Shown here: positions 4,097-9,551 of the stretch, in pieces
Position numbering within the stretch: the first letter of the stretch is position 1
Layout of the letters: each line of letters starts with the position of its first letter
Origin: Synergistaceae bacterium OttesenSCG-928-D05
GTDB taxonomy: Bacteria; Synergistota; Synergistia; Synergistales; Synergistaceae
Direction: 5' to 3'
DNA length: 64,000 bases
NCBI GenBank assembly: GCA_030266985.1
Contig: JAJDJB010000001.1
Span: forward strand, 1-64,000
The notes under the pieces: model-generated
What the model was told of the DNA's origin: nothing
Database searches by the model: none
Seen by the model: only the letters and a program-made list of their open reading frames with translations
Position numbers and translations under genes: made by a program

Positions 4097-4124
4097 GCGT
4101 TGCGCCCCTTATCATTTTGCTATG

Positions 4125-4153
4125 TTGACATAAAAACCAAATCAGTATAGAAT
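4125..4153 (+). promoter_or_regulatory. strong sigma-70 type promoter for the metQ leader
   Basis: A perfect TTGACA (4125-4130) is followed after 17 bases by TAGAAT (4148-4153), which matches TATAAT at five of six positions. Transcription should begin near 4160, about 47 bases before the small open frame at 4207 and about 300 bases before metQ. That leaves an unusually long leader. Confidence 0.75.
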
Positions 4154-4206
4154 CTCCGCAACGTTCCAAAAATCGAGAGCCAAGACCGGAGGAAAGGAGA
4201 AACGCC

Positions 4207-4290
4207 ATGTCGACTTTGAACCACAAAATGATGTCCAACATGATGATGTGCGGCAAAGGCGGATCCTCTCCTGAAATGGTCGGCTTCTAG
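4207..4290 (+). CDS. 27-residue methionine-rich open frame (putative leader peptide)
   Basis: The frame reads ATG to TAG over 27 codons. Seven are methionine: codons 1, 8, 9, 12, 13, 14 and 24. The peptide begins MSTLNHKMMSNMMM, then CGKGG, and ends MVGF. Its ribosome site is excellent, with GGAGG and AAAGGAG just upstream and the last GGAG 7 bases from ATG. A consensus promoter lies ahead of it and an intrinsic terminator begins 20 bases after its stop. The next gene is a MetQ-family methionine-binding protein. This layout (leader peptide rich in one amino acid, terminator, matching transport gene) is that of classical attenuators. A free-standing small peptide with its own mRNA is the main alternative. 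Confidence 0.55.
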   Translation: MSTLNHKMMSNMMMCGKGGSSPEMVGF

Positions 4291-4310
4291 CAAGCTTTTG
4301 CCATATCGGG

Positions 4311-4342
4311 ACCGGGTCCGTTTTTACGGGCCCGGTTTTTTT
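4311..4342 (+). terminator. intrinsic terminator between the Met-rich frame and metQ (possible attenuator)
   Basis: The arms ACCGGGTCCGT (4311-4321) and ACGGGCCCGGT (4326-4336) form an 11-bp stem with one T-G wobble and a TTTT loop, followed by seven T residues (4336-4342). A competing pairing is possible: GGCGGATCC at 4258-4266 can pair with GGGTCCGTT at 4314-4322, which would break the 5' arm. Whether that pairing forms has not been computed. Confidence 0.8.
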
Positions 4343-4456
4343 GTGTGTCCAAACCAGCGGAGGTGATCGGCAAAAACAGATGAGCGGAAACAAAAATTTT
4401 GGCATCATAGATTTTCAAACGAAAAAATCAAACAAATTCAAAAGGAGGCAACAACA

Positions 4457-5245
4457 ATGAAAAAGGTAATTCTATGTGCAATCCTGGCGGCAATCATGGC
4501 CCTCCCCACCGCGGCAACTGCGGCGGAACTCAAAAAAATCACGATCGGCGTAACCCCCTTCCCCGCGAAAGACATCGCGGCAGTGGCGGCGAAGGTCATC
4601 GAAAAAGACGGCTATCAGCTCGTGATAAAAGAGTTCACGGACTTCATCCAGCCGAACTACGCGCTGCAGGATAAGAGCCTCGAAGCCAATTTCTTCCAGC
4701 ACGTTCCGTTTCTGGAAAACATGAAACGTGAGAAAAAACTCGACATCGTGCCGCTCGTAAAAGTACACCTGCTACCAATCGGCATCTACTCGAACAAAAT
4801 CAAATCCTTTGATGAAGTCAAAAACGGCGCGGTCGTAGCGGTGCCGAACGACCCGACGAACGGCTTCCGCGCCTACAAACTGCTCGAACAGGTCGGCCTG
4901 CTCAAAATGAAAGACGGCGAACTGCTTACGGCGCGCGATATCGTCGAAAATCCGAAAAAACTCAAAATCATCGAGCTCGAAGCGCCGCAGCTCCCCCGCT
5001 CACTGCCCGACACGACGTTCTCCGTCATCAACATGAACTTCGCGGTCGACGCGGGCCTCAATCCGACGACAGACGCGCTCGCGCTCGAGAGCAAAGACTC
5101 CCCCTATGCTGTCGTCCTGGCGGTGCGCGGCGAAGACAAGGACGCGGACTTTGCGAAAGCGCTTTCCCGCGCGCTCAATTCCCCGGAAGTCAAAAAATTC
5201 ATCGAGAATGATCTAGCAGCCAAGGGCGTAATCCCCGCTTTTTAA
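4457..5245 (+). CDS. metQ: MetQ/NlpA-family substrate-binding protein
   Basis: This 262-residue periplasmic binding protein belongs to the NlpA/MetQ family, which delivers methionine (sometimes other amino acids) to the MetNI ABC transporter. Residues 1-22 are a signal peptide with a signal peptidase I site after ATA. There is no proper lipobox, as the only early cysteine lies inside the hydrophobic core. Family marks include QPNYALQD, LEANFFQHVPFLE and NDPTNGFRAYKLLEQ. AAAGGAGG lies about 9 bases before the ATG. No metN or metI gene is adjacent, so permease and ATPase must be encoded elsewhere. The long upstream leader suggests transcriptional control by methionine. Confidence 0.9.
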   Translation: MKKVILCAILAAIMALPTAATAAELKKITIGVTPFPAKDIAAVAAKVIEKDGYQLVIKEFTDFIQPNYALQDKSLEANFFQHVPFLENMKREKKLDIVPLVKVHLLPIGIYSNKIKSFDEVKNGAVVAVPNDPTNGFRAYKLLEQVGLLKMKDGELLTARDIVENPKKLKIIELEAPQLPRSLPDTTFSVINMNFAVDAGLNPTTDALALESKDSPYAVVLAVRGEDKDADFAKALSRALNSPEVKKFIENDLAAKGVIPAF

Positions 5246-8251: not shown

Positions 8252-9551
8252 AGAATACGGTCTGTTCGGTGATTGGCGTTTCAAGCGCCTTGAGGGATTT
8301 TTCCAGAATGGCGCGTCTGATTTCTTTTTCTTCCGCGGGCGTCTTTGCGGGATCGCCGAGCGGATAGGGGATCGCCACTGCGGGCACGATCCTGTTTGCG
8401 CCGACAGTCTGCGAGATCGGGACGATCGTACAGATGTGGACGACGGGGATGCCGGTACGTTCAATTTCTTTTACCATCGTTGCGCCGCAACGAGTGCACG
8501 TTCCTCAAGTGGATGTGAGGATTACTGCGTCAACGCCGTCTTTTTTCAGGCGCGCGCCGATTTCGGTTCCGAATTTTTTCGCGGCCGCGACGGGCGTACC
8601 GTTTCCAACTGTGGTGAAGAAGTAGTCGTAAAGTTTTTTAAATTCGCCGGCGCGCTCCATCTCACGCAGTTCGTCGATGGGCAGGACGCGGTTCGGGTCA
8701 TGGTTCGCGTAGGTCGGGTCGTATCCGCCGTGTGCCGTCGCGTACGCGACTTCTTCCGCGCTCTGGACGCCTGCGATGCTGTAGGTTCCGTATTTCGTCG
8801 CGCTGGAGGCCTCGATGCGGTCCGGGTTGCCCTTCGGCACGATGCCGCCGGAGGTGACCACCGCAATGGTCGCGTTTTTCATGTCGGTGATCGGCTGCGC
8901 AGGCGCCACGCGGTCAAAGTCGGGCATCGGATATTCGGTTTTGAAGGGTTCGCCTTTCAATTTTTTAATCAGCATATCGACCGCACGCTGCGCGCCGATT
9001 TTGTCGTTAAAGCAGTTGACGCGCAGGCCGCGCTCAATGTAGCCGCCCTCTTCTGGGCTGCCCGCCGTTCCGTTTTTGAGGATATCGAGCGTGAGCTTCG
9101 CCATCGCGGGAACGGCTGTTTTGATGCCGCGCGCGCTGTCTTCAGTAGATACGATGTAAACGCTTTTGCGGTACATATCGACGCCGGGGTTTTCCGCATA
9201 CATGCCGGTAACCGCGGGGATGCCAAGTTCTCTCTGCACCGCTTCCGCAACTGTTCCACACGCCGTGCCGTAACGGCCCGCGTTGAAGGCCGGTCCCGCT
9301 ATGACCGCGTCCGCGCCGAACACCGAGATCATTTTAAGAATCTGTGCGGTCGCCTCTTCCATATTTTCGGCGAAGTAGCCGTCGCCGCAGATGACGGTGC
9401 CGACGATTTCCGCGTTCTGGCCGAACGCGGCCTTGAAAGCCATGCCGGGTCCAACGACGCCGGGACGCGATTCTGGCGCGACGTCCGCTTTTTCTTCTCC
9501 GCCGATGCCGGCAAAGAACTGGTTGATATAGTGAACAATTTTATAGCTCAT
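8250..9551 (-). CDS. grdB: glycine reductase component B selenoprotein subunit, read through UGA
   Basis: This is the substrate-binding selenoprotein subunit of glycine reductase. The frame from ATG at 9551 runs 348 codons to a UGA at 8505-8507, then continues in frame for 84 more codons to TAA. The residues around the UGA read TSTUGTCTRCGATM, the conserved UxxCxxC site of GrdB, so the UGA encodes selenocysteine 349. Total length is 433 residues, as expected for the family. The start KIVHYINQFFAGIGGEEKAD is also diagnostic. A SECIS-like hairpin follows the UGA. GrdB binds the glycine-derived Schiff base of GrdE and passes the carboxymethyl group to GrdA. The two halves are one gene. Confidence 0.96.
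8463..8507 (-). promoter_or_regulatory. bacterial SECIS element and Sec UGA in grdB
   Basis: The UGA is at 8505-8507. Twelve bases later a stem CGTTGC / GCAACG (8487-8492 with 8478-8483) closes a GGC loop. The loop therefore begins about 18 bases after the UGA and starts with G, as required of bSECIS elements bound by SelB. Outer bases can lengthen the stem. Confidence 0.85.

Follow-up and report, generated by a model that had tools for sequence, protein, structure and literature searches.

Near the beginning of the window, the 64-kb stretch of DNA analysed here, a short methionine-rich reading frame precedes a terminator and a gene for a methionine transporter component, all on the forward strand. 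The promoter of this leader transcript (4125-4153) is of the sigma-70 type and agrees with the consensus at 11 of 12 positions; its -35 box TTGACA (4125-4130) and -10 box TAGAAT (4148-4153) are separated by a 17-nt spacer, as had been described in an earlier sequence-only reading of this DNA. Within the ribosome-binding region GGAGGAAAGGAG (4184-4206), the Shine-Dalgarno (SD) sequence AAGGAG lies directly 5' of the 27-codon leader ORF (4207-4290), which encodes MSTLNHKMMSNMMMCGKGGSSPEMVGF followed by a stop codon. Seven of its codons are AUG (1, 8, 9, 12, 13, 14, and 24), with runs at 8-9 and 12-14, and the stretch AUG AUG AUG UGC of codons 12-15 (4240-4251) was assigned as the control codons from the positions of Met and Cys in 48 Met leaders. 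Both this frame with its strong ribosome site and the terminator between it and the gene had been recognized in that reading, and both are present; the terminator stem (4308-4339) is counted here as 14 pairs, with a 5' arm at 4308-4321 and a 3' arm at 4326-4339 that continues into a U tract ending at 4342. The regulated gene (4457-5245) had likewise been named metQ, for the substrate-binding protein of a methionine ABC transporter; MetQ is indeed the best NCBIfam match of its product at 205 bits, though below the curated cut-off of 374, and is followed by MetQ/NlpA lipoprotein at 197 bits (cut-off 229).

A search pattern combining a Met run with the antiterminator element described below occurs once in the 64 kb and not at all in shuffled sequences. 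The scaffold model R2, which is built without the codon run, matches 4259-4344 with an E-value of 1.6e-17, a value that is not independent since the site is one of the 53 sequences of the model. Judged by the sequence features tested, the element is a ribosome-mediated transcription attenuator, a known class of mechanism.

Alternative helices and covariation

Three alternative helices can be drawn for the leader RNA. When the transcript ends at 4322, the minimum-energy fold is an antiterminator, composed of an outer helix in which GCGGATCC (4259-4266) pairs with 4314-4321, a two-base internal loop, and an inner helix between the 5' strand CCUGAA.AUGGU (4269-4280) and its 3' strand at 4300-4311. 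Positions 4314-4321 also belong to the 5' arm of the terminator, and the two structures are mutually exclusive. For the full-length transcript, the predicted fold consists of the terminator together with a putative protector helix, in which the leader's own SD within 4184-4206 is paired with 4258-4281. A competing pairing of 4258-4266 with 4314-4322 had been noticed earlier; the pairing is real but its register was one base off, and the reservation then attached to it, that it was too weak to settle the matter, is removed by the presence of the inner helix together with the covariation. Folding with and without the codons covered by a ribosome, which had been proposed as a check, yielded the mutually exclusive stems.

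To assess covariation, duplex energies were computed for 72 non-redundant leaders, or 65 in the case of the SD helix, with each element paired either with its native partner or with swapped ones; 10,000 permutations were run per helix, and again with swaps restricted to the same gene class. Energies were used instead of pair-by-pair counts because the register of the antiterminator shifts by one base between subtypes. The terminator arms gave -24.3 kcal/mol with their own partners and -15.9 kcal/mol with swapped ones (z -22.2; -11.5 within gene classes), the antiterminator -21.3 and -16.5 kcal/mol (z -14.3; -8.6), and the SD:leader duplex -18.1 and -15.4 kcal/mol (z -8.1; -5.8), each with 0 of 10,000 permutations as extreme. 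Two control pairings remained near zero, at z -1.1 for the codon run against the terminator arm and z +1.1 for the leader against the terminator 3' arm, and the weak values of the reversed-sequence controls (reversed leader, z -2.6; reversed SD, z -1.8) amount to a small composition effect.

Met leaders and the translating ribosome

A plain DNA search with 4100-4420 found matches in 15 of 61 genomes, the window's own genome counted and other genera and families included. Met-rich leaders, each followed by a terminator, were located before metQ, metN, metX, and metY in many Synergistota genomes, and the window's own genome has further ones before metY and metN (L017 and L071); two other matches in it (L140 and L150) contain no convincing leader and were taken as chance. 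Leader ORF, SD, and Met codons are conserved in the relatives, and the Met-rich frame before metQ, for which a search of related genomes had been advised, recurs among them. Downstream genes were named by clustering and by NCBIfam searches with cluster representatives, several of which, the window's MetQ included, fall under the curated cut-off, so that the names are best matches. Two Met-run leaders stand before genes of other kinds, identified by eye as encoding a JAB-domain-like protein (L163; G081:C98) and a PLP aminotransferase-like protein (L073; G091:C23); both are candidate additions to a sulphur or methionine regulon.

In a covariance alignment of 48 distinct Met leaders, with codons numbered relative to the antiterminator, Met occupies -7 in 94%, -6 in 98%, and -5 in 79%, and is never found at codons -1 to +3, with Cys at codon -4 in 69%; the Met frequencies are partly selected, as the model that finds most Met leaders includes the Met codons, whereas the link to met genes, unseen by the model, is free of this selection. 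If the terminator were constitutive, or the end of a short independent RNA, metQ would be transcribed from a promoter beyond 4342, and a consensus scan of that region returned a single weak promoter-like match at 4399-4428 on the forward strand (9 of 12 positions, compared with 11 of 12 at 4125). Such a promoter would have little room in those relatives whose gene begins just 20-40 nt after the terminator; together with the covariation of the antiterminator and the order of leader, terminator, and met gene conserved in many genomes, this renders separate transcription of metQ extremely improbable.

The influence of a translating ribosome on folding was modelled with a footprint that covered 18 nt before and 12 nt after the first A-site base. 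With 3' ends of the window transcript at 4321-4330, stalling at codon 8, 9, 12, 13, or 14 gave an antiterminator probability of 0.82-1.00 and stalling at Cys 15 one of 0.51-0.62, while a ribosome at codon 16 lowered it to 0.03-0.12 and one at the stop codon to 0.02 or less. Over 98 leaders, the permissive stall positions peaked at codon -6, where 87% of leaders exceeded 0.5, and codon -5, with 86%, and ended at -3, a drop that is partly an artefact of masking the element, the independent fact being that the Met codons stop where the antiterminator lies. The permissive zone closes near the end of the Met run in this set, and with the ribosome at the stop codon the antiterminator is not suppressed in every leader (mean probability 0.35, median 0.05). 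According to these models, the control codons are sited such that a stalled ribosome would free the antiterminator and a finished one would block it. At equilibrium, the finished terminator wins in all ribosome states once fully transcribed, and read-through must therefore depend on the order and timing of folding. The nascent antiterminator is also predicted in the absence of a ribosome (0.95-0.97 at 3' ends 4321-4326), and hence, despite the covariation of the SD:leader pairing (z -8.1), a role for the protector in untranslated transcripts is uncertain.

Anatomy, conservation, covariation, and the match between codon run and gene are thus shown; the stalling, the read-through, and the direction of control are inferred. 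RNA polymerase would start near 4160 and a ribosome would follow on the leader ORF. With Met-tRNA in ample supply, the ribosome would reach the stop codon and cover 4270-4300, the antiterminator would be blocked, and the terminator (4308-4342) would form, leaving metQ off. With Met-tRNA short, the ribosome would stall with AUG 12, 13, or 14 (or 8 or 9) in its A site and its leading edge at or before 4258, one base short of the antiterminator, which would then fold as 4314-4321 emerges and pre-empt the terminator, allowing metQ to be transcribed. Where no ribosome loads, the protector helix may favour termination by tying up the leader's own SD. The window element is thus very probably a ribosome-mediated transcription attenuator specific for methionine. 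The sequence-only reading had put forward a methionine attenuator and had named beforehand three findings that would speak against it, the downstream promoter considered above, lack of an alternative fold, and lack of conservation of the Met codons; an alternative fold exists, the Met codons are conserved, and the proposal is supported.

The UGC that follows the Met run may also be a control codon, in which case the leader would sense both sulphur amino acids and a shortage of Cys-tRNA would cause partial read-through. The prevalence of Cys at codon -4 and its abundance before met genes (1.90 per leader, compared with 0.74 elsewhere) are consistent with this, as is the intermediate antiterminator probability at codon 15 of the window leader. 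However, UGC is located on the border of the permissive zone, its conservation may reflect RNA or spacing constraints, and Arg or Gln occurs in its place in some Met leaders (L012, L013, L006, L159, and L092), so that a combined Met and Cys sensor is possible but rather unlikely.

SAM-I riboswitches and T-boxes

SAM riboswitches are common on methionine genes, and within the Synergistota SAM-I was found in 113 of 188 genomes and T-boxes also occur; an unrecognized metabolite riboswitch or a T-box might accordingly control metQ, with the leader ORF incidental. The leader matches no Rfam family at the gathering score, its loosest matches having E-values of about 0.1 and scores far under the cut-offs, an argument that is confined to known Rfam families. 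Neither SAM-I (RF00162) nor T-box (RF00230) has a match in the window, no SAM-I was found in the window's genome (67% complete), and in G000 T-boxes are present on contigs other than the window's. As, in addition, the identity of the codons tracks the downstream gene, control by such an RNA is highly improbable. Two other Rfam elements lie on the reverse strand of the window: a glycine riboswitch (RF00504; 11417-11519, 67.7 bits) and a SECIS_4 selenocysteine element (RF01990; 8467-8504, 54.4 bits). The latter is at the end of a 348-aa ORF (8505-9551, reverse strand), which suggests a selenoprotein with an in-frame UGA; the neighbouring ORFs resemble, by eye, genes of glycine/betaine reductase.

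The SAM-I riboswitch, or S-box, likewise controls met genes by transcription termination, but reports SAM rather than charged tRNA. Absent from the window leader, it is found in series with Met leaders in some relatives: ten Met leaders sit 115-164 nt downstream of a complete SAM-I aptamer, and at all four tandem loci inspected a terminator hairpin lies between the aptamer and the leader. The riboswitch with its own terminator and the Met leader would together constitute a two-input switch for methionine metabolism, amenable to testing, in which read-through would occur only with SAM and Met-tRNA both scarce. In one genus of about 40 genomes (g24, family f3), almost every member is without the scaffold and has kept the SAM-I riboswitch, an apparent lineage-wide loss.

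A family of leaders with other codon runs

The Met-trained model R1 also recovered leaders without Met runs, which share with one another an in-frame GSPPG-type end and a terminator. Leu/Ile/Val runs were found before ilvN, ilvC, ilvD, leuA, and leuC, Thr runs before homoserine dehydrogenase and aspartokinase (hom/ask), Phe/Tyr runs before PaaK-like ligases and a sodium/solute symporter, Ile runs before a 2-oxoacid oxidoreductase subunit and a threonine-dehydratase-like enzyme, and Ala runs before an aminotransferase and one other gene. Met residues number 4.52 per leader before met genes and 0.70 elsewhere (0 of 10,000 label permutations). Leu/Ile/Val, Thr, and Phe/Tyr/Trp residues are similarly enriched before the matching gene class (0 of 10,000 each), the Thr and Phe/Tyr/Trp groups comprising five leaders each and the pairings of class and residue having been chosen after the leaders were seen.

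With R2, the scaffold was detected in 124 of 188 Synergistota genomes, which represent 53 of 63 genera (E up to 1e-5). Its identity across different families and codon runs is about 54%, a figure inflated by alignment to a model, against 27% for composition-shuffled pairs, and because of this difference a common origin of the scaffold leaders is likely and convergence less so. The groups outside the Synergistota searched with R2 were Clostridia, with one match among 196 genomes, and Desulfobacterota, with weak matches (30-37 bits) in 16 of 198 genomes; most of ten Desulfobacterota matches inspected look like gene ends, and L233 resembles an unrelated trp leader. The Met pattern, when sought across GTDB r220, occurred in 30 Synergistota stretches and seven others; the seven were attributed to chance, as each site lies within at least one frame that is open for 92 codons or more, and no arrangement of leader and terminator can be made out.

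The in-frame peptide end, conserved in 88 of 98 leaders, could be taken to indicate nascent-peptide arrest, whereby a leader peptide ending in GSSPEMVG would itself stall translation on sensing Met or SAM. This end is, however, encoded by the antiterminator and changes together with the RNA that pairs with it. The versions GSSPEMVG and GSPPGRIG have the same RNA pairing, although the peptides agree at just four of the eight residues. As the peptide end follows the RNA pairing, and the same kind of end recurs behind Leu/Ile/Val, Thr, Phe/Tyr, and Ala runs, arrest was rejected and is considered very unlikely.

The window copy is one member of a Synergistota family with a common scaffold and differing codon runs. 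The Synergistota probably possess a standardized set of ribosome-read sensors, in which a single antiterminator/terminator scaffold, descended from a common ancestor and constant in its reading frame, carries exchangeable runs of Met, Leu/Ile/Val, Thr, Phe/Tyr, Ile, or Ala codons for matching genes with a modularity like that of T-boxes, and in which the Met version replaces or stacks with SAM-I to provide control by SAM and charged tRNA-Met, possibly with a Cys input. T-box riboswitches likewise combine one scaffold with an exchangeable specificity codon, but bind tRNA directly, whereas the sensor of the Synergistota scaffold is, as modelled, the translating ribosome; both kinds of element are present in these genomes. 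The his, trp, leu, ilv, thr, and phe attenuators of Proteobacteria are alike in the control codons of a leader ORF, in the choice among protector, antiterminator, and terminator, and in the match of the codon run to the regulated pathway; they differ in that here methionine would be sensed and a single recognizable scaffold is shared, within one phylum, by leaders with at least Met, Leu/Ile/Val, Thr, Phe/Tyr, Ile, and Ala codon runs. To our knowledge, proteobacterial leaders share no such common scaffold.

Outside the Proteobacteria, ribosome-read attenuation has also been reported for the uORF attenuator of Corynebacterium ilvBNC (PMC10272879, PMC11857589) and for His and Leu leaders of Firmicutes (PMC9413887, PMC2965389, PMC5794164), in each case with a single specificity, and no Met version was seen in the available portions of these reports. 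Cys-rich leader peptides of mycobacterial cys operons similarly have a run of sulphur amino acid codons in a leader ORF but are without a conserved hairpin terminator, and the same paper states that upstream of actinobacterial methionine operons conserved RNA structures were not seen (PMC1262725). The accessible part of a study that analysed Thermovirga lienii, a member of the Synergistota, makes no mention of such an attenuator (PMC6429828), and a speculative effect of initiator tRNA at fthC, mentioned in another paper, is a different idea (PMC11109978). No earlier description of a Met attenuator or of a Synergistota attenuator family was found in the literature searched, coverage of which was incomplete; to that extent, what appears to be new is that the attenuator is specific for methionine, that one scaffold accommodates interchangeable codon runs, and that it can be arranged in series with SAM-I. 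Methionine would join the amino acids for which leader-peptide attenuation apparently acts as the sensor, with the peculiarity that the codon sensed doubles as the start codon, and attenuators may form homologous, modular families and not just one-off inventions.

As the codon run names the regulated amino acid, it suggests substrates for unknown transporters and enzymes in the amino-acid-fermenting Synergistota. Leu/Val (L126), Tyr/Phe/Ile (L087), Phe (L120), and Leu/Ile (L149) runs precede transporters of unknown substrate, which the run may predict. Before panB, the run DVVVVVDV (L121; G043:C4) combines Val and Asp, which fit both pantothenate precursors (the valine pathway and aspartate). 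Elsewhere in the same genome, two scaffold matches lie in tandem before a gene for an ACT-domain protein (L122; G043:C8:513410 and 513650), possibly as attenuators in series.
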